Shown here piece after piece: positions 1 through 16,122 of a stretch of 55,821 nt of DNA. Position 1 is the stretch's first letter, and each line of letters begins with the position of its first letter. The translations under genes and the position numbers were made by a program. The DNA is from Rhizobiaceae bacterium (lineage in GTDB: Bacteria > Pseudomonadota > Alphaproteobacteria > Rhizobiales > Rhizobiaceae), in the NCBI GenBank assembly GCA_016763155.1, contig JAESUH010000059.1, forward strand, positions 1-55,821, in the 5' to 3' direction. The notes below the pieces were generated by a model. That model saw only the letters and a list, made by a program, of their open reading frames with translations, had not been told where the DNA came from and did not search any database.

Positions 1-96
1 ATTATTGTATTGATTGCCTCAGCTGTATCTGCCCTGATTGTTCTTATTCGTGTACGGCATCTGGATATGATTGCTGTCCTGAAGACAAAGGAATGA
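1..96 (+). CDS. ABC transporter permease, FtsX family (C-terminal end only)
   Basis: Partial: the gene enters from outside the window and only its last 31 codons are seen. They encode a hydrophobic segment followed by a short basic tail ending VRHLDMIAVLKTKE, a typical end of FtsX/MacB-type ABC permeases, whose last membrane helix is followed by a cytoplasmic tail. Its TGA (94-96) overlaps an ATG at 93 of the following membrane fusion gene, so the two are translationally coupled. Together they suggest an ABC exporter with a periplasmic adaptor. The substrate cannot be told from this fragment. Confidence 0.7.
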   Translation: MIVLIASAVSALIVLIRVRHLDMIAVLKTKE

Positions 97-98
97 AA

Positions 99-1310
99 AT
101 GTTTTCAATATGGATAAAGCGTCTTGGTCTTCTAACTATAATTCTGGCGATTGGCGCCGGAGGTTATTTGATGATCAGGCCCCAACCGGTTTCCGTGGAT
201 GTGGTGGAGATTGTCCGGGGAGACATCGAAACGACAGTGGATGAGGAGGGCAAAACCCGAGTTAAAGACGTATATAGAATTTCTGCGCCCATGACCGGCA
301 AGCTTGAGCGCCTTTCCGTTAAAGTGGGTGACTATCTGGCCGCCGGAGAACGCATTGCCAGAATCAGGTCAGTCGACCCGCCAATTCGTGATCTTCGCAC
401 CAGAAGAGAGCTTGCCGCTGCAACCAAGGCAGCGCGTGCAATGGTGCTACTTTCAGGCGCTGAAATAGCAAAAGCAAATTCATCACTTTCCTTCGCCAGG
501 TCTGATCTGGAACGAGCAAAACGTCTGGTGAAATCCAAGACCATAACCGTGCGACGGCTGGAGCAAGCGGAACTCGAAGTTGCGGTGAAGGAAGCTCTGG
601 TTACAGAAGCAAATGCCAATCTTGAATTGCGTAGACGCCAGCTTGAATCTGCTCAGGCAAGACAGCTACAACCAATAGACCTTTCGACTGCAGTCACCGA
701 AGATCAATGCTGCGTTGCTCTTGTAACACCTGTTGCAGGCTCCGTGCTTCAGCTATTCGCAGAGAGTGAACGAGTGGTGCTGGCAGGAAGTCATATTCTG
801 GATGTTGGCAATATTAAAGATCTGGAAATTGTGGTGGATCTTCTATCCGCTGATGCCGTGACCATTACTGCCGGCACGCAAGCGCGCATTGAAGACTGGG
901 GCGGAAAAGAAATTTTAAACGCTCGGGTAAGAAGCGTAGACCCCGCCGGTTTCACCAAGATCTCAGCGCTTGGTATTGAAGAGCAACGAGTAAACGTAAT
1001 TTTGGATATCACCGATCCCAAAAAGGCTTGGGAAAAGCTGGGCCACTCTTACAGGGTCACAGTTCGGGTGATTACGTCTCATAAAACGGACGTGTTACGC
1101 ATCCCGATCAGCGCTCTCTTCCGCGTCGAAAACAATTGGGCAAGTTATGTTGATGAAAACGGCACCTCAACCCTGAAGTTGTTGAAGCTTGGCAACTTTT
1201 CCCTTACCCACGCCGAGGTCTTATCCGGCCTTGAACAAGGCGAGAAAGTCATTGTTTTCCCAAGTGACCAGATTACGGACGGCAGTATGATCGAGATTCG
1301 ATCAAAGTAA
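99..1310 (+). CDS. HlyD-like periplasmic adaptor of an ABC exporter
   Basis: Membrane fusion protein of about 403 aa that would link an inner-membrane ABC permease to the outer membrane or act as periplasmic adaptor. An N-terminal membrane anchor lies at about residues 8-26. It is followed by the first half of a lipoyl/barrel-sandwich domain (around TGKLERLSVKVGDYLAAGE), an Ala/Glu/Arg-rich coiled-coil hairpin at roughly 100-200, the second lipoyl half and a beta-barrel C-terminal domain. Two in-frame ATGs exist, at 93 and 99. The AAAGGA at 87-92 sits 6 nt from the ATG at 99 but abuts the one at 93, so 99 is preferred. The gene follows an FtsX-type permease by overlap. The cargo is unknown. 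Confidence 0.85.
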   Translation: MFSIWIKRLGLLTIILAIGAGGYLMIRPQPVSVDVVEIVRGDIETTVDEEGKTRVKDVYRISAPMTGKLERLSVKVGDYLAAGERIARIRSVDPPIRDLRTRRELAAATKAARAMVLLSGAEIAKANSSLSFARSDLERAKRLVKSKTITVRRLEQAELEVAVKEALVTEANANLELRRRQLESAQARQLQPIDLSTAVTEDQCCVALVTPVAGSVLQLFAESERVVLAGSHILDVGNIKDLEIVVDLLSADAVTITAGTQARIEDWGGKEILNARVRSVDPAGFTKISALGIEEQRVNVILDITDPKKAWEKLGHSYRVTVRVITSHKTDVLRIPISALFRVENNWASYVDENGTSTLKLLKLGNFSLTHAEVLSGLEQGEKVIVFPSDQITDGSMIEIRSK

Positions 1311-1317
1311 AATATGC

Positions 1318-1350
1318 TTGAGAGAGGTTCAGGGTTTGAACCTCTCTCAA
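1318..1350. terminator. Perfect 14-bp hairpin between convergent genes
   Basis: Arms 1318-1331 and 1337-1350 are exact reverse complements around a 5-nt loop. It lies between the ends of the HlyD-like gene (+) and the alcohol dehydrogenase gene (-). Neither flank has a long T-run, but position and stem strength suggest a bidirectional terminator or 3' end stabiliser. Confidence 0.75.
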
Positions 1351-1364
1351 GATAAATTGTCTGA

Positions 1365-2510
1365 TTACATAATAGCTTCGAGAAGCGCTTTTGTGTTTTC
1401 AAAATTCATCTCAATCGGATTTCCACCCGTGCTTGGGTCCCGAAGAGCAGCTTCTGTAAGCTTGTCGATATCCGGGTCTTTAACTCCCAGTTCGGTTAAG
1501 GTCTTTGGAATGGACATTGATGCGTTTAGATCATCCACATAAGCGCAAAAACCTGCAAACCCGCCTTCAATTCCCAGATAGGCAGAGACTGAATCAAAGC
1601 GATCAGAAATCTCACTCTTATTAAATTGAAGAACCGCAGGCATACAAACCGCATTGGTTGTGCCGTGGTGGGTGTGATGTACCGCGCCAATTGGGTGGCT
1701 CAATGCATGAATTGCACCAAGACCCTTTTGGAATGCAGTTGCACCCATGGCTGCGGCAGCCATCATATGAGCACGCGCCTCAATGTCGGTCCCATCGGCA
1801 TAAGCGCGCGGCAAATATTCTTTCACAAGCCGCATTCCTTCAAGCGCCATGCCCTGACTCATTGGATGATAATGCGGGCTTGAATAAGCCTCCACACAAT
1901 GGGCAAAGGCATCAAGGCCTGTGCCAGCAGTGATAAATTTAGGCATCCCCACGGTAAGTTCAGGATCACAAATTACAGTTACTGGAAGCATCTTCGGATG
2001 AAAGATTATCTTCTTTTCATGCGTTTGCGAATTGGTGATGACGCTTGCGCGGCCAACTTCGGAACCAGTGCCAGCAGTTGTGGGGACGGCAACAACCGGT
2101 GCAATTGCATCTGCATCTGCACGCGTCCACCAATCTCCAACATCTTCAAAATCCCATAGCGGACGAGTTTGGCCAGCCATGAAAGCAATGACTTTTGCAA
2201 GGTCGAGACCTGAACCACCGCCAAAAGCAACAACACCGTCATATCCACCTTCGCGATATACAGCGATACCATCTTCAGCATTTTTATCCGTTGGATTAGC
2301 ATCAACTTCTGAGAACATGCCACGTCCCAGTCCACCTGCCTCAAGCAGATCGAGGGTCTTTGTGGTAATTTCCATGCTGGCCAAACCTTTGTCGGTCACC
2401 AGCAAGGGTTTGGTTATGCCAGCAGATTTGCAGGCGTCAGCGATTTCAGAAATTCGTCCTGCGCCAAAGCGCATAGCGGTCGGATAAGACCAGTTACCGG
2501 TAAGCAACAT
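1365..2510 (-). CDS. Iron-containing alcohol dehydrogenase
   Basis: Group III (Fe-ADH family) NAD(P)-dependent alcohol dehydrogenase of 381 aa, normal family length. Visible signatures are the nucleotide-binding GGGSGLDLAKVIA near residue 100, TTAGTGSEVGRASVITN near 145, and metal ligands in AFAHCVEAYSS and HALSHPIGAVHHTHHGTTNA. It is the last gene of a minus-strand operon, 4 bp after the aldehyde dehydrogenase gene. A linked Fe-ADH and aldehyde dehydrogenase normally carry an alcohol through the aldehyde to an acid. With the neighbouring glutamine-synthetase-like ligase, a gamma-glutamylated amino alcohol is a reasonable but unproven substrate. Annotation as a maleylacetate reductase relative is less likely because of the aldehyde dehydrogenase partner. 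Confidence 0.9.
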   Translation of the reverse strand: MLLTGNWSYPTAMRFGAGRISEIADACKSAGITKPLLVTDKGLASMEITTKTLDLLEAGGLGRGMFSEVDANPTDKNAEDGIAVYREGGYDGVVAFGGGSGLDLAKVIAFMAGQTRPLWDFEDVGDWWTRADADAIAPVVAVPTTAGTGSEVGRASVITNSQTHEKKIIFHPKMLPVTVICDPELTVGMPKFITAGTGLDAFAHCVEAYSSPHYHPMSQGMALEGMRLVKEYLPRAYADGTDIEARAHMMAAAAMGATAFQKGLGAIHALSHPIGAVHHTHHGTTNAVCMPAVLQFNKSEISDRFDSVSAYLGIEGGFAGFCAYVDDLNASMSIPKTLTELGVKDPDIDKLTEAALRDPSTGGNPIEMNFENTKALLEAIM

Positions 2511-2514
2511 CTTA

Positions 2515-3891
2515 TTAAGCTTTCTTCAAATGATAGGATTTCGGGCGGGTTAAATTGTGATAACCGATGACAGACAGGCCGCCGCCACGGCCTGTATCCT
2601 TGCAACCAGTCCAGCACAGGGCCGGATCAAGATAGTCACAACGGTTCATGAAGATGGTGCCGGTCTCGATTTGATCACCAATCGTTTGTGCGCGGACAAT
2701 GTCTTTCGTCCAAAGCGATGCAGTCAAACCAAAATCACTATCGTTCATTAACGCAATCGCTTCAGCATCATCCTTGACCTTCATAATCCCAACAACCGGG
2801 CCAAAGCTTTCATCACGCATAACCCGCATGTCATGGGTGACATTGGTTAGAATTTGTGGCGACAAATAGGCTCCGCCATCATCTTCGCTTGCTACTTCAA
2901 TATGGGCCTTGGCACCCATGGCAACAGCCTCTTCAATCTGGCTACGCACTTCTTTTGCAAAGCGCACATTGGCCATTGGGCCGATTGTGGTTTCTTTATC
3001 CAATGGGTTGCCGAGTTTATATCCATTGACGATTGCAACCGCCTTTTCGACGAACTGATCAAACAAGGATTCAACCACATAGATGCGTTCAATACCGCAG
3101 CAGCATTGGCCCGAGTTAAACATGGCACCATCGATCAGCGTATCAACCGCTGCATCGAGATCAGCATCTTCCATCACATAGCCCGGATCTTTGCCGCCAA
3201 GCTCCAATCCAATGCCGGTAAATGTACCAGCAGCAGCGATTTCCATTGCCTTGCCACCACCGACCGAACCAGTGAAATTGATGAAATCAAAGCAACGGTC
3301 AGCAATCAGTTTTGAAGTCGTATCGTGATCCAAAAAGACATTCTGAAAAACAGCTTCAGGAATGCCCGCAGCATGGAAAGCCTTGGCCATGCGCTCACCC
3401 ACTAGAAGCGTCTGTGTCGAATGCTTGAGGATGACGGTATTTCCAGCAATCAAGGCAGGTGCGACCGTATTAATCGCTGTCATATATGGATAGTTCCACG
3501 GCGCAACCACCAAAACCACCCCATGAGGAATGCGTTTAATATAACGATGAAACTCTTCATCGTTGGAAACTTCAATATCGCCGAGAGCTTCTTTGGCGAT
3601 GCTTGCCATATGGCTGGCGCGTTCTTCGAACCCACCGAACTCGCCGCCATATCGAACAGGCCGTCCCATCTGCTTGGCGAGCTCCAGAACGACCTCATCG
3701 TTCATCTCGCCAATAATTGCCACACCGGCCATGACCAGATCAACGCGCTCTTGCAAGGGACGTACTGCCCATGCAGCCTGTGCATCAGACGCGCATTTGG
3801 CAGTTTTGCGCGCTTCTTCATAAGTTTTCGTTGGCCGTTCAGCAAAGACTGATCCGTCAATCGGAGAAATGCATTTTAGTATTTTAGCCAT
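2515..3891 (-). CDS. NAD-dependent aldehyde dehydrogenase
   Basis: Aldehyde dehydrogenase superfamily enzyme, 458 aa, slightly short for the class. The active-site region FNSGQCCCGIERIYV supplies the catalytic cysteine and GIGLELGGKDPGYV the general-base glutamate. The Rossmann motif FTGSVGGGKAMEIAA and the substrate/cofactor loop VVLVVAPWNYPYMTAINTV are also present. It lies 4 bp upstream of the Fe-ADH gene and 11 bp downstream of the glutamine-synthetase-like gene in the same direction. By context it probably oxidises the aldehyde made by Fe-ADH, perhaps while still carrying a gamma-glutamyl group as PuuC does in putrescine breakdown. The exact substrate is inferred only from neighbourhood. 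Confidence 0.9.
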   Translation of the reverse strand: MAKILKCISPIDGSVFAERPTKTYEEARKTAKCASDAQAAWAVRPLQERVDLVMAGVAIIGEMNDEVVLELAKQMGRPVRYGGEFGGFEERASHMASIAKEALGDIEVSNDEEFHRYIKRIPHGVVLVVAPWNYPYMTAINTVAPALIAGNTVILKHSTQTLLVGERMAKAFHAAGIPEAVFQNVFLDHDTTSKLIADRCFDFINFTGSVGGGKAMEIAAAGTFTGIGLELGGKDPGYVMEDADLDAAVDTLIDGAMFNSGQCCCGIERIYVVESLFDQFVEKAVAIVNGYKLGNPLDKETTIGPMANVRFAKEVRSQIEEAVAMGAKAHIEVASEDDGGAYLSPQILTNVTHDMRVMRDESFGPVVGIMKVKDDAEAIALMNDSDFGLTASLWTKDIVRAQTIGDQIETGTIFMNRCDYLDPALCWTGCKDTGRGGGLSVIGYHNLTRPKSYHLKKA

Positions 3892-3902
3892 TATTTATCC
3901 AA

Positions 3903-5267
3903 TCACGCCCTCTCAAATCCGCGGGCAATTTCATAATCCGTAACAACTTTATCGAACTCTTCCTGCTCCCATTCAGCGCAACGGTAATAGTGGTCAATCA
4001 CCCCATCTCCCAATGCGCTCCGAAGCATTTTTGAATTCTTCAGCGAAACCATGGCATCGCGCAAATTGGCCGGGATATTGCCGCCTTTTTTGCTCGAATA
4101 TGCGTCGCCGTTCAGCGGCGCTTGAAGTTCCAGTTTTTCCTCAATGCCGGCAAGACCCGCAGCCAATTGTGCAGCCATTGCCAGATATGGATTTAAATCA
4201 GAGCCACCAATCCGGCATTCAACCCGGACAGCCTTCGTATTCTCGCCACATAAGCGAAAGCCAGCTGTTCGGTTATCGATAGACCAAACAGTCCCTGTCG
4301 GCGCAAAGGTACCTTTTTGAAACCGCTTATAGCTATTCACATAGGGCGCCAGAAAATAGGTCACATCGGGTGCGTATTTGATGAGCCCCGCCATATAGTG
4401 GCGCATAAGGTCTGACATGCCATGTTCAGCATTTTCGTCAAAGAATACAGATTTGCCGTCTTTCCAAAGAGACTGATGAATATGGCTGGATGAACCAACA
4501 CGGTCACGATGCCACTTTGGCAGGAAAGTGGCTGCATGACCTTGCTGCCAGGCGATTTCCTTAACCGCATGTTTTGCAATCGTATGGTGATCGGCACAGT
4601 TTAGCGGCGCATCATATTTGATGTTCAGCTCTTCCTGACCAGCTTCCGCTTCACCCTTGGTATTCTCAATCGGGATACCGGCTGCGTAGAGATGGTTACG
4701 GATCGGCCGCATCACATGCTCTTCTTTGGTGGTCTGGAAGATATGATAATCTTCATTGTAAGAGCTGATGGGCGTCAAATCCCGAAAGCCACTTTTTTGG
4801 ATTTCTTCAAAACTCTTTTCGAAAAGAAAAAACTCAAGCTCGGTTGCCATGGCGGCCTCAAAACCGAGCGCGCTCAATCGGGCAATCTGCGCTTTGAGAA
4901 TTGCACGTGGAGAATGGGGAACCGGCTCGTGAGTACGGTGATCAAGAACATCACACAAAATCATCACAGTCCCTTCGAGCCAGGGAATGGGTCGCAGTGT
5001 CTCCAGATCAGGCTTCATCACATAGTCGCCATATCCTGATTGCCAACTGGTTGCGGCATATCCATCAGGCGTTGCCATTTCCAGATCAGTTGCCAAAAGA
5101 TAGTCGCAGCAATGGGTTTCTTCATAGGCGCTATCAACAAAATGTTGAGCAAGAAAACGCTTGCCCATAAGACGGCCCTGCATATCAACCAAACAACAAA
5201 GAACCGTATCGACCTCTGCGTTAGCTACCTGCTTTTTCAATTCTTCAAATGTCATCTTTGCGGCCAT
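3903..5267 (-). CDS. Glutamine synthetase-like gamma-glutamyl-amine ligase
   Basis: Member of the glutamine synthetase fold, 454 aa, of the GlnT/PuuA branch rather than the main GlnA. Seen are the N-terminal beta-grasp (LVDMQGRLMGKRFLA), the metal-binding TELEFFLF, AEAGQEELNIKY, the ATP-site segment GSSSHIHQSLW and the glutamate-binding NRTAGFRLCGENTKAVRVECR. There is no recognisable adenylylation tyrosine motif at the C-terminus, as expected for catabolic paralogues. Family members ligate glutamate to amines such as putrescine, isopropylamine or ethanolamine using ATP. The operon with TRAP transport, aldehyde dehydrogenase, alcohol dehydrogenase and an N-acylglutamate hydrolase-like enzyme supports a gamma-glutamylation pathway. 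The specific amine is not determined. Confidence 0.85.
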   Translation of the reverse strand: MAAKMTFEELKKQVANAEVDTVLCCLVDMQGRLMGKRFLAQHFVDSAYEETHCCDYLLATDLEMATPDGYAATSWQSGYGDYVMKPDLETLRPIPWLEGTVMILCDVLDHRTHEPVPHSPRAILKAQIARLSALGFEAAMATELEFFLFEKSFEEIQKSGFRDLTPISSYNEDYHIFQTTKEEHVMRPIRNHLYAAGIPIENTKGEAEAGQEELNIKYDAPLNCADHHTIAKHAVKEIAWQQGHAATFLPKWHRDRVGSSSHIHQSLWKDGKSVFFDENAEHGMSDLMRHYMAGLIKYAPDVTYFLAPYVNSYKRFQKGTFAPTGTVWSIDNRTAGFRLCGENTKAVRVECRIGGSDLNPYLAMAAQLAAGLAGIEEKLELQAPLNGDAYSSKKGGNIPANLRDAMVSLKNSKMLRSALGDGVIDHYYRCAEWEQEEFDKVVTDYEIARGFERA

Positions 5268-5298
5268 TGGCTCAATTTCTTTTCAGTTGCACCTTGCA

Positions 5299-5323
5299 AT
5301 GGGCGCCGCAAAGCAGCGCCCAT
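5299..5323 (-). other. Intra-operon hairpin between dctP and the ligase gene
   Basis: An 8-bp perfect GC-rich stem (arms 5299-5306 and 5316-5323, 9-nt loop) sits just after the stop of the TRAP binding protein and before the ligase start. No T-run follows it in the minus direction, so it is more likely a 3' stabiliser or partial attenuator. Such a site would raise binding-protein mRNA above that of the downstream enzymes. Confidence 0.6.
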
Positions 5324-5343
5324 CAAACTCATATCTGGGCTGA

Positions 5344-6387
5344 TTAGCCGTAACGGTATGGACGACCGGCTTTGACCATGTCCTCATTATATTTCTTGAT
5401 GATGCCCACAACTTTCGCCTTGATTTCAGACTCAGCTGCAATTTCATCCCAGAACTTGACCGCTGCAGATTCCACTGTGGCCCATTCTTCATCAGGAATT
5501 GTTGTCAGTTCCATTTTAGGACCATTGACGCGAAGAGATGCTTCACCGCCCCAATACCACCACTGACGGTAATAATGGCTTTGATCCATGCAAACCCTCA
5601 ACAATTCTTGCAAATCTGCTGGCAACTCATTCCAGCGATCCATATTAGCAAAGAATGACCCAGCCCATGCACCGGAGATATTGTTGGTGAGGAAGTAATT
5701 TGTCACATCCGCCCAACCAACAGTGTAATCCTCGGTAATGCCAGACCAAGCAATGCCATCCAGCTCGCCAGTCTGCATTGCAACTTCGATATCTTCCCAA
5801 GGCAATGTTACCGGAACAACACCAAACTGGCTCAAGAAGCGACCAGCGGTTGGGAATGTGAACACTCTTTTACCTTTGAGATCAGCCAATGATCTGATTG
5901 GCTCTTTAGTTGCAAAATGGCATGGATCCCAGGCACCGGCAGAGATGTGTTTTACACCAACTTTTGAATATTCAGAATCCCAGATTTCATTCAATCCGTA
6001 CTGGTTGAACAATACCGGCACATCAAGCGAATAGCGTGATGCAAACGGGAAGTAGCCGCCAAACACTGTAACTTCTGTTGGTGAGGCCATTGAATCATCA
6101 TCAGACTGCACAGCATCGATCGTACCCTTTTGCATGGCACGGAAGAGTTCACCGGTTGGAACCAGCTGATCTGCAAAATATAGTTCAATTTCCATGCGGT
6201 CGCCCGCAATTTTGTTGAAGCTGTCAATCGCAGGCTTGATCACATGTTCAGCCAATGCCGCACCGGCATAGGTCTGCAAGCGCCATTTGATTTTCGATTG
6301 TGCAAGTGCCGGTGTCGCCAATCCAGCGGCAGCAACTGGTGCCACAATGGCAGCATTCTTGATAAATGTTCTTCTATTGGTAGTCAT
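5344..6387 (-). CDS. TRAP transporter substrate-binding protein (DctP family)
   Basis: Periplasmic solute receptor of a TRAP transporter, 347 aa. The N-terminus MTTNRRTFIKNAA... is a twin-arginine (Tat) signal with an A-L-A-Q cleavage region near residue 30. The mature part shows the DctP fold: IKWRLQTYAGAALAEHV at the start, the linker-strand signature SLADLKGKRVFTFPTAGRF, and the late MDRWNELPADLQELL helix seen in the family. It is encoded with the membrane subunits DctM and DctQ. TRAP receptors usually bind an organic acid through a conserved arginine, here possibly the one in FPTAGR, but non-carboxylate ligands are known. The ligand is probably the substrate fed to the gamma-glutamyl ligase and dehydrogenases downstream. 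Confidence 0.9.
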   Translation of the reverse strand: MTTNRRTFIKNAAIVAPVAAAGLATPALAQSKIKWRLQTYAGAALAEHVIKPAIDSFNKIAGDRMEIELYFADQLVPTGELFRAMQKGTIDAVQSDDDSMASPTEVTVFGGYFPFASRYSLDVPVLFNQYGLNEIWDSEYSKVGVKHISAGAWDPCHFATKEPIRSLADLKGKRVFTFPTAGRFLSQFGVVPVTLPWEDIEVAMQTGELDGIAWSGITEDYTVGWADVTNYFLTNNISGAWAGSFFANMDRWNELPADLQELLRVCMDQSHYYRQWWYWGGEASLRVNGPKMELTTIPDEEWATVESAAVKFWDEIAAESEIKAKVVGIIKKYNEDMVKAGRPYRYG

Positions 6388-6446
6388 TGGTATTCTCCCT
6401 TTGTTGTTTTCTTTTTCCCCTGTTCACTTCACTTTGGAAGTCTCGG

Positions 6447-7769
6447 TTAATTCCCGTAAACATATTTTGGCAACCACATAGCAATTTGTGGAAATGCCAT
6501 TACGAGAATAAGTGCAAACACCATCACCGCCACGAATGGACCGATAGAGGCGTAAATATCTTTGATCGTAATCTCTGGCGGCGCCATCGCTCGCATGAGA
6601 AACAGATTATAGCCAAATGGCGGCGTCATATATGCAATTTGAGTGGTGATCGTATAAAGCACCCCATACCAGATAAGGTCAAAACCAAGAGCATGGACAA
6701 GCGGCACATAAAGCGGGGCAACAATAACCAGCATCGCCGTATCATCCAGAAATGTACCCATTACCAGGAATGATAGTTGCATCATGATCAAGATTACCCA
6801 AGGGTCGAGGCCCAATTGCTGGGTAAACAAATTATCAATTGCACTGACAGCACCCAGCCCATCGAAAACCGCACCAAACCCAAGTGCCGCAAGGATGATC
6901 CACATAAACATACAAGATATCGCAAGCGTCTGGCGAACCGATGCCTCAAAAACCTTGCGGTTCATGCGACCCTTGAAAACAGCTGCCAAAAACGCGACGA
7001 CTGCCCCCACTGCCGAACTTTCAACCAGCGATGTCCACCCGTTTACAAATGGAACCATCATGGAGGCAAATATGAACAGTGGTAACAAGCCGGCACGCAA
7101 CAATTTGTACTTTTCGGCTTTCGAAATATTGCGCTCTTCTTCAGGCAAAACTGGCCCAAGCTCAGGTTGAATCCGGCACCGAATGTAGATGTAGAGCATA
7201 AACATCGCAGCCATCATCAGGCCCGGAAAAATACCCGCAAGCCACAATTGCCCCACAGGCTGGCGCGCGATCATGGCGTAGAGAACCAGCACAACTGACG
7301 GCGGAACAAGGATGCCAAGCGACGATCCAGCCTGGATGACCCCGGTCACCATGCGTTTGTCATAGCCCCGTTTTAATAGTTCCGGCAAAGCGATGGTTGC
7401 CCCGATGGCCATACCAGCAACAGAAAGACCATTCATCGCTGAAATCAGAACCATCAAACCAATGGTTCCGATTGCCAAGCCGCCACGAACAGGCCCCATC
7501 CAGAAATGAAACATCTTATAAAGGTCATCTGCGATCTTCGATTCCGACAGGACGTATCCCATGAAAATGAACAATGGCAGCGTGAGCAGTGGATACCATT
7601 TCATCAACTTCATTGCGGCAGTGAACGGAATATCCGAACCGCCAACCCCCCAAAGCGCCAGAGCAGCAAGGGCACCAACAGCGCCAATTGCACCGAATAC
7701 CCGCTGCCCTGTAAACAGCATCAGCATCATGGACGAAAACATGAACATTGCGATTAAGTCAGGAGACAT
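6447..7769 (-). CDS. TRAP transporter large permease (DctM)
   Basis: Large membrane subunit of a TRAP transporter, 440 aa, about 12 transmembrane helices, which drives sodium-coupled import of the ligand delivered by the DctP protein. Family signatures visible include LFIFMGYVLSES near residue 65, AGSSLGILVPPSVVLVLYAMI near 155 and DDTAMLVIVAPLYVPLV near 340. Its start codon overlaps the last base of the dctQ stop (TAATG), with a strong GAGGAGG ribosome site inside the end of dctQ, so the two permease subunits are translationally coupled. Unlike some relatives it is not fused to DctQ. Confidence 0.93.
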   Translation of the reverse strand: MSPDLIAMFMFSSMMLMLFTGQRVFGAIGAVGALAALALWGVGGSDIPFTAAMKLMKWYPLLTLPLFIFMGYVLSESKIADDLYKMFHFWMGPVRGGLAIGTIGLMVLISAMNGLSVAGMAIGATIALPELLKRGYDKRMVTGVIQAGSSLGILVPPSVVLVLYAMIARQPVGQLWLAGIFPGLMMAAMFMLYIYIRCRIQPELGPVLPEEERNISKAEKYKLLRAGLLPLFIFASMMVPFVNGWTSLVESSAVGAVVAFLAAVFKGRMNRKVFEASVRQTLAISCMFMWIILAALGFGAVFDGLGAVSAIDNLFTQQLGLDPWVILIMMQLSFLVMGTFLDDTAMLVIVAPLYVPLVHALGFDLIWYGVLYTITTQIAYMTPPFGYNLFLMRAMAPPEITIKDIYASIGPFVAVMVFALILVMAFPQIAMWLPKYVYGN

Positions 7770-8338
7770 TATTCAGCCTCCTCTTCGCGCAGTTTGATGA
7801 TATCTTTGAGCAACTCAGAAATTGCTTGAAGCAACATAAGAAAAATTCCAACACACATGGTTACCTTAATTGGCCACAGCACGGGTCGCCAGGCTGTGGG
7901 GCTTCGCTCCAAACGTCCAACATCTTCAAAGCCGGTCGCAAGGCCGAGCAGAAAACTGAATGGTTCTTTGCCATAATACCCAAAGGAATAGGCTGTTGAG
8001 CCTAGGGCGCCATAAAGCAACACACCAAGATAGAACAACAAAAACATGACGGTCATGCAATCAATTTGAGCTTTGCGCCGCGTCGTCCATTCCGCATAAA
8101 ACAGGTCCATGCGTACATTCGAGCCCATTTGGATAGAATAGGGGCCGCCCAACATATAGTAGGCGACCATTGCAAACTGAGCGACTTCCAAAGTCCAACT
8201 CGAGGGCATAAAAAATAACTTGGAAATTGAAGACCATAGCAAAATGCCAATCATGACAAAAATGCCATACATGACCACTCGGCCCATCCGGTAATTCACC
8301 GCATCAATAAATTTGATGTAGCTACGCGCGAAAATCAT
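7769..8338 (-). CDS. TRAP transporter small permease (DctQ)
   Basis: Small membrane subunit of the TRAP transporter, 189 aa with four predicted membrane helices (about 18-38, 55-75, 95-118, 148-170). DctQ proteins are poorly conserved, but length, topology, the SWTLEVAQFAMVAYYMLGGPY segment split across helix 2, and the position directly before dctM support the call. Its ATG shares four bases (ATGA) with the stop of the upstream N-formylglutamate amidohydrolase-like gene and its stop overlaps dctM, so the cluster is one tightly packed operon. Confidence 0.88.
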   Translation of the reverse strand: MIFARSYIKFIDAVNYRMGRVVMYGIFVMIGILLWSSISKLFFMPSSWTLEVAQFAMVAYYMLGGPYSIQMGSNVRMDLFYAEWTTRRKAQIDCMTVMFLLFYLGVLLYGALGSTAYSFGYYGKEPFSFLLGLATGFEDVGRLERSPTAWRPVLWPIKVTMCVGIFLMLLQAISELLKDIIKLREEEAE

Positions 8339-9102
8339 CCGGGCGCCCTCTCATCAACAAGCGTAGAATGCACCTTACCAACCGCATCAGATAATAATGA
8401 TGTGAGCATTTCGCTCACCGCATCGGTTTGCGAAGCGGATTGAATAAAATCGCTGCGGATTTCCAGCATAACATTCAACAATCCGCGACTAAGGCCATGC
8501 AGTTTCAATGTGTGCGTCACACCATCCTCAGGTCCATAGGGCTGATTTCTTTCCACTTGCATCTCTGTATGACTTCCTGCCTGAGCCAGAATTGAATCAG
8601 CCATTCTGGCATCTTGATCATGCAGCACACCCAATTGAACAGACCTGCTTTTCCCATTGTACACAGGCGCAAAGCTATGGATAGTCACAAGAACAGGTTT
8701 GATCGCATGAGTATCCAGAACACCGATAAGCGCACGTTCAAACGGGCGATAGTATTTGACAACGCGGTCTGCAATTTGGTCCAAACCAAGATCCCTATTG
8801 CCAGGAATATCAAAGGCTTCGCTTCGTGAAGGGATCGAATCAGGTGCTTCTGGAGGACGGTTGCAATCATAAACTATACGAGAAACACATCCCACGACTG
8901 CAGGCGCATTAAATGCTTTTGCTAAATTAAGCGTTATATCCCGTGCACCAGGGTCCCAGGCAATATGACTAAATCTGGCTTCATCGCTCACGCCAAGATC
9001 ATTATATTTCTCAGGGATATAGTGTGAAGCATGCTCACAAACAAACACAAACGGGGCCATTGTGCCACCCGACACCACATCAACCACTGTTTCCTCGCTC
9101 AT
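8335..9102 (-). CDS. N-formylglutamate amidohydrolase family hydrolase
   Basis: Zinc-type hydrolase of the N-formylglutamate amidohydrolase (FGase) family, about 255 aa. Motifs seen are FVFVCEHASHYIPEKY, HIAWDPGARD, SRIVYDCNRPPEAPDSIPSRSE and VTIHSFAPVYNGKSR, which supply the family His/Glu/Asp/Arg residues. The open frame extends to 9162, but GAGG placed 9 nt before the ATG at 9102 favours the shorter start (MSEETV). FGase removes an acyl group from N-acylglutamate in histidine breakdown. No hut genes are near, and instead the gene heads an operon with a glutamate-amine ligase. It may therefore release the product or glutamate from a gamma-glutamyl intermediate, playing the part PuuD has in putrescine breakdown. 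That role is inference. Confidence 0.85.
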   Translation of the reverse strand: MSEETVVDVVSGGTMAPFVFVCEHASHYIPEKYNDLGVSDEARFSHIAWDPGARDITLNLAKAFNAPAVVGCVSRIVYDCNRPPEAPDSIPSRSEAFDIPGNRDLGLDQIADRVVKYYRPFERALIGVLDTHAIKPVLVTIHSFAPVYNGKSRSVQLGVLHDQDARMADSILAQAGSHTEMQVERNQPYGPEDGVTHTLKLHGLSRGLLNVMLEIRSDFIQSASQTDAVSEMLTSLLSDAVGKVHSTLVDERAPG

Positions 9103-9227
9103 GCAATACATCCTCTTTTTAGCATTATGTAAAATTCTCTTCAACTGGAGGCCATTTGTCAAGAAATTTTCTCAGACCACATAAAAAAATTTATGTAGAC
9201 TGCAAATCAACAAGAAGGAGAATGGAC
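9103..9227. promoter_or_regulatory. Divergent control region with candidate RpiR operators
   Basis: This 125-bp gap separates the catabolic operon (-) from the RpiR-type regulator gene (+). It holds a 7-bp perfect inverted repeat with a 4-nt A spacer (ACATAAA/TTTATGT, 9179-9196) and a small palindrome GAAATTTTC at 9163-9171. A related half-site TTATGTAAAATT lies at 9125-9136. Divergent regulators of this class often bind such AT-rich palindromes to control both directions. Which repeat is the true operator is not decided. Confidence 0.5.
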
Positions 9228-10094
9228 GTGACAACAATTTCGGTTGCAGAAAGGCTGCGAGAAAAGAACGATGAGCTAACCAGAGCTGAGCGGCAACTTT
9301 CTGATACAATATTGCGAAATTATCCCGCATCAGGACTTGGAACCATCACGACAATTGCAAAAACAGCAAAAGTTTCCACGCCAAGTGTTGCCCGCCTCGT
9401 CCAAAAACTGGGATTCAGTGGTTTCCCTGATTTTCAGGCCCATCTTCGCCAGGAATTAAATGAGGAACTGTCAGGCCCGATAGCCAAGCGCGAACGCTGG
9501 GCAAACGACGCACCCAAAGGACATATTCTCAACCGCTTCACAGAAGCGGTGATCGACAATATCAGCCAGAGCCTGCGAGAAATTGACCCCAGTGAATTTG
9601 ATGAGACCTGCGCACTCCTGAGCGATCCAAAACGCCGCATATTCATTGTGGGTGGCAGAATTACGCATAGTCTTTCAGACTATTTCTTTCTTCATATGCA
9701 GGTTATGCGCAAGAAGGTCACCCATATCACATCCAGCTCAAACACCTGGCCTCATTACCTTTTGGATGTTGAGGAGGGCGATATTGTGGTGATATTTGAC
9801 GTCCGACGCTATGAAAACAGCACGCTAAAACTCGCTGAAATGGCAAAACAAAAAGGCGCCGAAATAATTCTGTTCACCGATGAATGGAACTCACCCATAA
9901 GCCAACATGCCCGCCATTGCCTCAAAAGCAGAATAGCAGTTCCCTCAGCATGGGATTCAAACGTCAATTGCATGCTACTGGCAGAAATCGTCATCGCATC
10001 GGTTCAAGAGCACCACTGGGATTCAACCAAAGAACGCATGCAAGAACTGGAACATATGTTCGATCAAACACGTTTTTTCAGAAAATTTTCATAG
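9228..10094 (+). CDS. RpiR/MurR-family transcriptional regulator with SIS domain
   Basis: About 288 aa. The N-terminal winged helix-turn-helix covers residues 1-75, including GLGTITTIAKTAKVSTPSVARLVQKLGF in two adjoining parts. The C-terminal SIS ligand domain (about 105-240) contains RRIFIVGGRITHSLSDYF. An ATG at 9222 touches the ribosome site, whereas the GTG at 9228 lies 7 nt after AAGGAG (9215-9220), so GTG is the better start. Members sense sugar phosphates or other small phosphorylated or charged metabolites. Divergence from the TRAP/gamma-glutamyl operon makes it the likely local regulator and probably an autoregulator. Whether it represses or activates cannot be told. Confidence 0.88.
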   Translation: MTTISVAERLREKNDELTRAERQLSDTILRNYPASGLGTITTIAKTAKVSTPSVARLVQKLGFSGFPDFQAHLRQELNEELSGPIAKRERWANDAPKGHILNRFTEAVIDNISQSLREIDPSEFDETCALLSDPKRRIFIVGGRITHSLSDYFFLHMQVMRKKVTHITSSSNTWPHYLLDVEEGDIVVIFDVRRYENSTLKLAEMAKQKGAEIILFTDEWNSPISQHARHCLKSRIAVPSAWDSNVNCMLLAEIVIASVQEHHWDSTKERMQELEHMFDQTRFFRKFS

Positions 10095-10132: not shown

Positions 10133-11428
10133 TTAGGTTTTGTCATTTTGTTTTTGGCATAGATAGTGGCAGGCAAAACCAAACGCTCCAAATGCAATCA
10201 TGAAAGATTCGCCAATGGCCAATCTATGATTTGAATTTGTAAGGATAGAAATCAGGAACAGCGAAAGAATGCTGAAAGAAAAATAGTAAGCTAACCTGTC
10301 AATAATTCCGCGATCCGCGCAAATTCTAATTTGCCTTGTCACCCAAATAAACAACGCCCCATAATAAAGCAGGCCAACCAACCCAAAGCGCATGGCAACC
10401 GAGAGGTATCCGTTGTGAACCAGCGTGAATTTATTATAATCGTCTGATTGCTGTACCCAAATATTTTCCCAATAAATTCCCATCCCAAAGACAGGATTCA
10501 TAAGCCATATCTGAACCGCCTTCATCCAAAGGTGAAACCGCACGGTCATGTTTTTCGGCAATTCAGATTGATCAATTGTCGCCTTCAATGCCTCCATTGA
10601 AAACTGGTCCATAGAGCCAACATTTTGAACAATTTTCAAAACGCCAGCTATGTTGCCAGCCACGTATTCATTGGTAATGTGAGGAAGAAAAAAGAAAACC
10701 CCGACTCCGATACAGATGGCAATTCCCGCTATAGCAACTTTGAATATTCTTCTTATTGGCAGCACCAAAGAAAATATTGCCCAACAAAAAATTAGAACGC
10801 CAACAGATACCCAAACACCTTTTGAACTGCTTCCGTAAATTCCGATAAGGCACATAATCACGTTACTGGCAGCGAGAAATAATCCGGCCAACCGAACGCG
10901 CTTAGGCCGCAATTTCCACGCCCATATAAAGAAAAACACTGATGCAATTAATATGAACGCAGCCCCTAAAGACGCGTGAATTGTGTTTTTATGGAATAGA
11001 ATGGGTATACGTGTACCCAAGGGCTTTTCGATGACATCCAACGGACTGATGGATGCAAGCAACAAACAAAAACTAACAATCATAAACGCCCAGATTATTT
11101 TATCGAACGCATTTCGATAAACATATAAAAAATAACCAATGCTTGGGTACAATAAGGGAAACAGATAAATCCCCTCTGCTGATCCACCAGTAGCGTCTGG
11201 GTGGGTGAGCTTAACGTAAATATAATAGCCAACAACGAATGCCGCCCACAACGCACCCACTTTACCCATGACCGGCATCGGCGGTTTCTCAACGGCTTTG
11301 GAATAAAGAAACATACCAATCAGAGCGAGCAAAATTGCAATAAATCGATAACCGTCACTCTCTACCCACACGGGAGAAACCAACACCAATAATGCCAAAA
11401 CAAATGCTACTTCAATCTTCTTATTCAT
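10133..11428 (-). CDS. O-antigen ligase-like polysaccharide ligase/polymerase (Wzy_C family)
   Basis: Polytopic membrane protein of 431 aa, about 11-12 helices with a large periplasmic loop in the second half (roughly residues 255-320). This is the layout of the WaaL/O-antigen ligase family. Conserved features are a loop with MKAVQIWLMNPVFGMGIYWENIW followed by THE-like VHNGYLSVAMRFGLVGLLYYG, where the histidine and surrounding N/G/Y match the catalytic loop of the family. It would transfer or polymerise undecaprenyl-linked glycans at the periplasmic face. It is transcribed after the adjacent GT25 gene with a 4-bp gap, so the two probably work together on LPS or another surface glycan. Confidence 0.82.
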   Translation of the reverse strand: MNKKIEVAFVLALLVLVSPVWVESDGYRFIAILLALIGMFLYSKAVEKPPMPVMGKVGALWAAFVVGYYIYVKLTHPDATGGSAEGIYLFPLLYPSIGYFLYVYRNAFDKIIWAFMIVSFCLLLASISPLDVIEKPLGTRIPILFHKNTIHASLGAAFILIASVFFFIWAWKLRPKRVRLAGLFLAASNVIMCLIGIYGSSSKGVWVSVGVLIFCWAIFSLVLPIRRIFKVAIAGIAICIGVGVFFFLPHITNEYVAGNIAGVLKIVQNVGSMDQFSMEALKATIDQSELPKNMTVRFHLWMKAVQIWLMNPVFGMGIYWENIWVQQSDDYNKFTLVHNGYLSVAMRFGLVGLLYYGALFIWVTRQIRICADRGIIDRLAYYFSFSILSLFLISILTNSNHRLAIGESFMIAFGAFGFACHYLCQKQNDKT

Positions 11429-11432
11429 AAAA

Positions 11433-12176
11433 CTAACGATATTTGGCCATAAATTTCAACGCGTAAAACAATCGGGAAAACACCTCTTTCACGCGAAAAA
11501 ACAGTGCCGAAATACGAAGATAGAATGCATATTTAGAAGCCTTATAATTTGTAGCAATTTGAGAATCCTGTGTCTCGCTTGAAAACGATAACCAGTTATT
11601 TTTCACACATTGAATATTATATCCATTAGCCCAGCCTCGTTCCAAGGCGTTGTCATAGGGTAATGTCATAACTTCCAAAGATTTTCGCACTTGTTTAGCA
11701 CCTTCTGCCGAAACTGCATATGCAGCAGCAGAACCAAGCGGCCCAAAAAGTGTATAGCCCACCTCTCGATTCGTTGATGTACGTGCCACACCTCTAAACC
11801 CATGACATCGATGATTTACAAGCTTTAAAACATCCAAATCCGGTTGCAACTCAAATATTTCTTCGATGTTTTGAATAAGCTCTGAGCTAAACAAAACATC
11901 ATCTTCACAAATCAAGGCAAGGCTTAAGTCTGACGAGATAATTTTATCGAGTGCCATTAGATGGCTTTGATAACACCCATACTCTCCAGGAAGTATGCGT
12001 CTTCCATGAAAAATAGAAAACCAAAACTGTGAAACATTGATCCAGCTATCTCGTGGCTCGCTAGCCCTAAGAGCATCTATACGAGTTAGTTTGATCCCAT
12101 TTTCATTTGCGGAAGCAGTACAACTGTCCCATCTGGATATAGCACTTTTTAAATTTATAACGAAAATAGGGAGCAT
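11433..12176 (-). CDS. Glycosyltransferase family 25 (LPS biosynthesis)
   Basis: GT25-type sugar transferase of 247 aa. N-terminal IFVINLKSAISRWDSC and ENGIKLTRIDALRA are the family opening. GEYGCYQSHLMAL and CEDDVLF carry the acceptor/donor-site acidic residues (the EDD motif replaces DXD), and GSAAAYAVSAEGAKQ is the usual late motif. Members add galactose or related sugars to lipooligosaccharide core. A basic, hydrophobic C-terminal tail (after residue 210) may dock it to the inner membrane. It lies 4 bp upstream of the O-antigen ligase-like gene. The AT-richness of both suggests surface-glycan variability, though transfer is not shown. Confidence 0.88.
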   Translation of the reverse strand: MLPIFVINLKSAISRWDSCTASANENGIKLTRIDALRASEPRDSWINVSQFWFSIFHGRRILPGEYGCYQSHLMALDKIISSDLSLALICEDDVLFSSELIQNIEEIFELQPDLDVLKLVNHRCHGFRGVARTSTNREVGYTLFGPLGSAAAYAVSAEGAKQVRKSLEVMTLPYDNALERGWANGYNIQCVKNNWLSFSSETQDSQIATNYKASKYAFYLRISALFFRVKEVFSRLFYALKFMAKYR

Positions 12177-15341: not shown

Positions 15342-15947
15342 TTATAGATTGTCAGAATTTCTCACTGTACCGCCAGCAGACGGGCTTGTTTGTCTTATGT
15401 CGATATCCGAATTCTTCCCATACTGAAGGGGCGATGCCTGTTTGTTTTCCTTTAGATCAGCAATGCGATGCTCGTTACGTACTGTCTTGAGAAAACCGGC
15501 GAGCTTGTTGATGTCACCTTCAGATTCGATAACATCAAGATAAGGCTCATACTTCGGTTTTGGACGAGGATGGAACTTCCAGAGAGCGGATTGCTTGTAT
15601 TCCGATTGCAAGAACTTGAACACGCGTTCACGCATGTCGAGCTCAGCGGTCTGAACTGCTTTGAATTTATCTGAGTAAATTCGCTTGATGTCATATGCAG
15701 AAATTGTTGGCGATGGGTTAGCTTGAGACGATGGTGCTTGCTCATCTCTGTAGCGATCAAAATCAGCTTCGATCTCTGACAAAACATCAGGAAAGAGTTT
15801 CAACGCGACGTTTTGATCCTTAGTTCGCAGAGACTTCTGGATTTCTTTTTTACCAACCTTCTCAACCAAATCTTCAGGCACACGTTTGCGCACGTAATAT
15901 ACGCCGTTTCGGTTTACTAAATTGGCAATGTCCATCAGCTCGCTCAT
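15342..15947 (-). pseudogene. Truncated tyrosine recombinase (phage-type integrase), N-terminal part only
   Basis: 201 aa. Residues 8-60 (NRNGVYYVRKRVPEDLV, then KKEIQKSLRTKD) are the arm-binding N-terminal domain typical of DUF6538-type integrases, and the part to about 160 fits the start of the core-binding SAM-like domain. The catalytic domain with the R-H-R-Y residues is absent: the frame closes with an unrelated Ser/Gly-rich tail, and nothing catalytic remains before the cargo gene 87 bp further on. Normal length would be near 400 aa. The gene starts next to the tRNA-Leu 3' end and its upstream edge touches the arm-type repeats. It probably cannot recombine DNA, but could still bind arms or be a dead remnant. 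Confidence 0.75.
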
Positions 15948-15954
15948 GCCACCA

Positions 15955-15977
15955 TTGTGTAGCAGTTTGTGTAACAG
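15955..15977. repeat. Arm-type repeat pair, right copy
   Basis: Identical over 18 bp to 14061-14078 and again built of two 9-bp units with a TTT spacer, GTGTAGCAG and GTGTAACAG. It lies 7 bp upstream of the integrase start and 61 bp from the tRNA-Leu 3' end, where an integrase arm site is expected. Binding here could also regulate the integrase promoter. Confidence 0.65.
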
Positions 15978-16038
15978 CGAGTTAAGAAATAGTGTTTTAT
16001 TTCAATTAGTTAATAAATAATAAACACTTAAAAGAAAA

Positions 16039-16122
16039 TGGTGCCCCCCGCCGGAATCGAACCGGCACTCCATAGGAACGGGATTTTGAATCCCGCGCGT
16101 CTACCAATTCCGCCAGAGGGGC
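16039..16122 (-). tRNA. tRNA-Leu (anticodon CAA)
   Basis: 84 nt including encoded CCA. The acceptor stem pairs GCCCCTC with GGGGGGC (one G-U), the D arm contains the type-II pattern TGGCGGAATTGGTAGAC, and the anticodon stem CGGGA/TCCCG holds the loop TTCAAAA with anticodon CAA at 16086-16088. A short variable arm follows and the T arm has GGTTCGATTCC. The 3' end faces the truncated integrase and served as integration target. Confidence 0.97.

Follow-up and report, generated by a model that had tools for sequence, protein, structure and literature searches.

Which compound is handled by a gene cluster in which a TRAP transporter, a glutamine synthetase (GS)-like ligase, two dehydrogenases and an FGase-family hydrolase are read away from an RpiR-type regulator? 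Such a cluster lies in the window, i.e. the whole stretch of 55,821 nt analysed here. Our reading, to which we give a probability of about 93%, is that it represents an eto (ethanolamine-utilisation) operon of the gamma-glutamyl type, combining uptake by EtoVWX, ligation, two oxidations, hydrolysis and repression by RpiR. Ethanolamine is a building block of membranes and is released from phospholipids.

Gene layout, conservation and proposed pathway

A preliminary description had listed a seven-gene cassette with a divergent RpiR regulator and was right in both gene list and coordinates: ORF calls and profile searches over the window find all eight genes intact at roughly those positions (Table 1). 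The one exception concerns the junction between hydrolase and regulator, where both TTG starts look too long. The long forms of the FGase and RpiR reading frames that begin there overlap each other; ATG starts at 9102 and 9222, respectively, are the better choice and leave a promoter region of 119 nt (9103-9221). From the hydrolase down to the Fe-ADH, the minus-strand genes are separated by gaps of -4, -1, 59, 76, 11 and 4 nt, and this tight spacing, together with the hairpin 3' of the last gene, makes it likely that all seven form one transcript. Families of eut-type ethanolamine use (EutBC lyase, shell genes) were not found among the eight genes in the profile searches. The region adjoining the operon (10133-12176) has a low GC content of about 41% and carries genes for an O-antigen ligase (Wzy_C) and an LPS glycosyltransferase of family 25.

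Table 1. Annotated and predicted features of the eto locus and its surroundings (window coordinates)
Feature	Position	Strand	Domain match or remark
Fe-ADH, predicted gamma-glutamylethanolamide dehydrogenase (GETADH)	1365..2510	-	PF00465, PF25137
Aldehyde dehydrogenase, predicted GAADDH (gamma-glutamyl aldehyde oxidation)	2515..3891	-	PF00171, E 4.5e-115
GS-like ligase, predicted ethanolamine gamma-glutamylase (ETAGA)	3903..5267	-	PF00120
EtoX, TRAP solute-binding protein DctP	5344..6387	-	PF03480
EtoW, TRAP large permease DctM	6447..7769	-	PF06808
EtoV, TRAP small permease DctQ	7769..8338	-	PF04290
FGase-family hydrolase, predicted GGAH (gamma-glutamylglycine amidohydrolase)	8335..9102	-	PF05013, E 6.8e-36
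RpiR/MurR-type regulator (HTH_6 + SIS)	about 9222..10094	+	PF01418, PF01380; divergent
Terminator-like hairpin	1317..1351	-	15-bp stem, after Fe-ADH (last gene)
Predicted RpiR operator TGAAGAGAATTTTACA	9128..9143	-	matches TGWAR-N6-YTWCA; overlaps -10 of operon promoter
Predicted operon promoter TTGACA-17-GAGAAT	9134..9162	-	consensus scan, 10/12 matches
Short DUF6538 ORF	15342-15947		integrase-like N-terminus by reading; adjoins tRNA-Leu
tRNA-Leu(caa)	16039-16122		beside DUF6538 ORF

The cassette had been put forward as a possible uncharacterised pathway, which does not hold, because the same cluster is already published as the ethanolamine cluster of Phaeobacter sp. MED193 (also given as Roseobacter sp.; PMC10132767). 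In that paper, the MED193 eto cluster comprises MED193_10021-10056 and is read as RpiR, GGAH, EtoV, EtoW, EtoX, ETAGA, GAADDH and GETADH, with Chromohalobacter salexigens and Agrobacterium cited as earlier cases. Growth on phosphorylethanolamine raises the levels of the GGAH, EtoX, ligase, ALDH and ADH proteins in proteomics, and MED193 EtoX binds ethanolamine with a Kd of 7.9 µM and none of the other substrates tested (PMC10132767). The chemistry guessed for the cassette beforehand, namely gamma-glutamylation of an amino alcohol, two oxidations, FGase-like hydrolysis and TRAP uptake, coincides with the published proposal; what falls away is the novelty. The pathway is already known, and the predicted RpiR operator is the sole fresh detail.

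In gene content, order and homology, the cassette is one of a conserved series. A search of other genomes found 80 named EtoX loci, and in all 57 that contain the eight genes these have the same order and strands, which excludes chance. Among 18 loci retrieved from relatives of the window genome, 14 likewise have all eight genes in this arrangement. The remaining EtoX loci are either variants or truncated at a contig end. EtoW is 80-90% identical to the window protein in most other loci. Two kinds of variants were observed. In six loci (L018, L027, L029, L059, L076 and L084), some of them cut by contig ends, EtoX and the permease genes occur in stretches with no ligase or dehydrogenase genes; their enzymes may lie at another site in the genome, or a different route may operate. 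In five others (L031, L060, L067, L033 and L058), the ligase gene is followed by the Fe-ADH gene and no aldehyde dehydrogenase gene was found nearby.

In the proposed pathway, EtoX would catch ethanolamine in the periplasm and EtoVW would import it, driven by an ion gradient; uptake of ethanolamine by EtoVWX is a prediction supported by close homology. At the expense of ATP, the GS-like enzyme would then attach ethanolamine to glutamate through the gamma-carboxyl group, the resulting gamma-glutamylethanolamide would be converted by the Fe-ADH to the aldehyde and by the aldehyde dehydrogenase to gamma-glutamylglycine, and the FGase-like hydrolase would most likely release glutamate and glycine. 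With the intermediate bound to glutamate throughout, the cell would avoid toxic aldehyde in free form and would need no microcompartment for this. The oxidation and hydrolysis of gamma-glutamyl intermediates have been proposed both for MED193 and for Streptomyces (PMC10132767 and PMC6529630, respectively).

Hydrolase, solute-binding protein and ligase

From the chemistry and the gene neighbourhood we infer the roles of the two dehydrogenases and of the hydrolase. The closest solved relative of the latter is Atu2144 (2ODF), and it is the only member of its family found in this genome. It might do something else, acting as a deformylase or in by-product repair, while another peptidase finishes the pathway: it is the least conserved enzyme of the cluster, with about 40-55% identity among loci, and is not detectable in either of two same-genus genomes (G001 and G002; assemblies 66-68% complete). 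Such a role is nonetheless improbable, given that the hydrolase gene comes first in the operon in all 57 complete loci, that GGAH levels go up together with those of the other proteins in MED193 (PMC10132767) and that the corresponding step in Streptomyces has been tentatively assigned to an FGase-family hydrolase (PMC6529630). Beyond the cited papers, our literature search found no study on the hydrolase or on the RpiR regulator.

Ethanolamine is the best-supported substrate, being the ligand of close DctP orthologues, with alaninol and similar small amino alcohols as possible side substrates. The window EtoX, which bears a twin-arginine signal (RR 5-6), is identical to Csal_0678 (4UAB/4XF5) in 263 of 318 positions (83%). 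Csal_0678 was crystallised with ethanolamine (4UAB), its Glu220 holding the amine and the hydroxyl, and is known to lack the Arg that gives TRAP proteins their preference for carboxylates. Glu220 corresponds to E219 of the window protein, a mapping fixed by the PDB chain numbering (33..347 for 315 residues), and is invariant in 101/101 aligned sequences. The position of the carboxylate Arg is taken by F176 in the window and by F or Y in all 101. Ethanolamine is therefore a predicted ligand in the window, its binding having been demonstrated for close EtoX orthologues. Structure prediction of EtoX with AlphaFold, based on a narrow alignment, gave a poor model (pLDDT 53.6) that was of use only for PDB titles and numbering.

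GS-like ligases are frequently promiscuous, and a second Csal_0678 structure exists, 4XF5, which we take to be the alaninol-bound form; both fit a pathway of the same design that in nature mainly serves a different small amino alcohol (alaninol, 1-amino-2-propanol or 3-aminopropanol) and yields another gamma-glutamyl amino acid. We consider this very unlikely, as the pocket residue E219 is invariant and ethanolamine is by far the most abundant of these compounds in nature. Ethanolamine is also what the close EtoX orthologues bind, and the MED193 operon proteins increase with phosphorylethanolamine.

Among solved structures, the nearest relative of the ligase is Csal_0679 (5DM3; phmmer E 8.6e-229), whose locus tag adjoins Csal_0678; the structural match has a Z score of 51.5, with 1.3 Å over 375 residues. 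The flap motif is GYEAP in the genome's own GlnA versus GTFAP in the ligase, where the catalytic Glu (E327 of GS) is replaced by Phe. This residue, F321, is invariant throughout the ligase alignment. In view of the known chemistry of GS, use of ammonia is therefore not expected. Two specific assignments were rejected. As a glutamine synthetase, the ligase scores 258.8 with the GlnA model against a cut-off of 429.15 and lacks Glu327; as PuuA (gamma-glutamylputrescine synthetase), it scores 210.7 with the NCBIfam model GGputSyn against a cut-off of 650. Close homology supports its prediction as an amine-type GS-like ligase. That it is instead a real glutamine synthetase in an operon importing a carboxylate, which would make the gamma-glutamyl reading wrong, has practically no probability: GlnA and GS III models do match it, though below their cut-offs, and carboxylates are the ligands of most TRAP proteins, but the catalytic Glu is a Phe, a separate GlnA is encoded on another contig, the DctP protein is without the carboxylate Arg and, among solved structures, the Csal_0678/0679 pair is the closest.

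A predicted operator and the origin of this copy

The window RpiR protein is an orthologue of that of MED193 (50% identity, same position), and we infer that it regulates the operon. The 16-bp palindrome TGWAR-N6-YTWCA is present in exact form in 38 of 66 GGAH-RpiR intergenic regions (window 9103-9221 and 65 homologous ones; shuffled mean 0.4), at a density of 5.7 per kb versus 0.055 per kb over the whole of the fetched loci; these counts are optimistic, since the scored sequences are those from which the pattern was picked by eye, and relatedness among the loci means that they are not independent samples. A stronger sign of a putative operator, outweighing the counts, is its fixed register to the -35 box. 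Relative to the first base of TTGAC, the palindrome begins 19 nt downstream at 26 sites and 24-25 nt upstream at 19 sites; in 14 cases two copies form a pair with a spacing of 43-44 bp. The promoter predicted in the window comes from a consensus scan that overall gave no enrichment over shuffles. RpiR would probably repress from the palindrome over the -10 box and be released by ethanolamine or a product. Where sites are paired, about four helical turns apart, the promoter could be clamped between two RpiR dimers. No palindrome or binding motif is mentioned in the main text of PMC10132767.

Several comparisons suggest a separate history of this copy. GlnA proteins of the two same-genus genomes are 94 and 91% identical to that of the window genome, whereas EtoX is only 71-72% identical. 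A tree built from EtoW, EtoX and the ligase places the window among 32 loci that group together with a support of 0.99; the named members listed are, congeners aside, mostly Rhodobacterales. The eto cluster of G001 (L111) is diverged, sits at another place in the genome and has no hydrolase or RpiR gene detected beside it; a threonine-dehydratase-like gene lies upstream of it in divergent orientation (11047-12009). The cluster of G002 (L128) is also diverged and is cut by a contig end. Contamination of the assembly was considered as a cause of the odd tree position. A different region of G001 is collinear with window positions 17.6-36 kb, with identities of 45-95%. HlyD, encoded at the left end of the contig, is 76% identical to its congener counterpart versus 45% or less in other genera; as far as tested, the contig therefore looks native. 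Left of the tRNA-Leu gene, no collinearity with G001 was observed, and 15342-16122 is a possible island edge.

Horizontal gain of the eto operon is the simplest reading of these comparisons. Replacement of the cluster in the congeners, or a binning mistake, keeps some residual probability because all the assemblies are incomplete. Taken jointly, we lean towards horizontal gain from a Rhodobacterales-like source and control of eto by RpiR through the -10 palindrome, which in many loci is accompanied by a further copy 43-44 bp upstream.

Comparison with known systems

The window adds another carrier of the eto operon and opens no new pathway. It offers a testable predicted operator for an apparently unstudied RpiR regulator and, if the prediction is true, the ethanolamine pathway would have its own defined regulator and operator. 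The locus would also be a case of exchange of the eto operon between lineages. According to PMC10132767, the gene for the TRAP ethanolamine importer is abundant in the ocean and is expressed there.

The MED193 locus, recovered independently in our genome scan as L079, has the same eight genes as the window, in the same order and on the same strands. Its proteins show 74% (Fe-ADH), 79% (ALDH), 75% (ligase), 87% (EtoX), 64% (EtoW), 58% (EtoV), 44% (hydrolase) and 50% (RpiR) identity to those of the window. Its EtoW is longer by 60 residues, and its intergenic region contains one-mismatch forms of the operator pattern only, the exact pattern not being found there. Csal_0678 and Csal_0679 of Chromohalobacter salexigens (4UAB, 4XF5, 5DM3) provide an EtoX that is 83% identical with the same ligand Glu, and the closest solved ligase; unlike the window host, this organism is a gammaproteobacterium. 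The Puu and Ipu gamma-glutamyl pathways likewise rely on a GS-like ligase, oxidation and hydrolysis, with other substrates, transporters and hydrolases. In Streptomyces coelicolor, GlnA4 is a demonstrated gamma-glutamylethanolamide synthetase, and its pathway resembles that of the window in having two dehydrogenases and a proposed FGase-family hydrolase for the last step; according to PMC6529630, it differs in using a short-chain dehydrogenase in place of the Fe-ADH and in its transporter, regulator and gene order.
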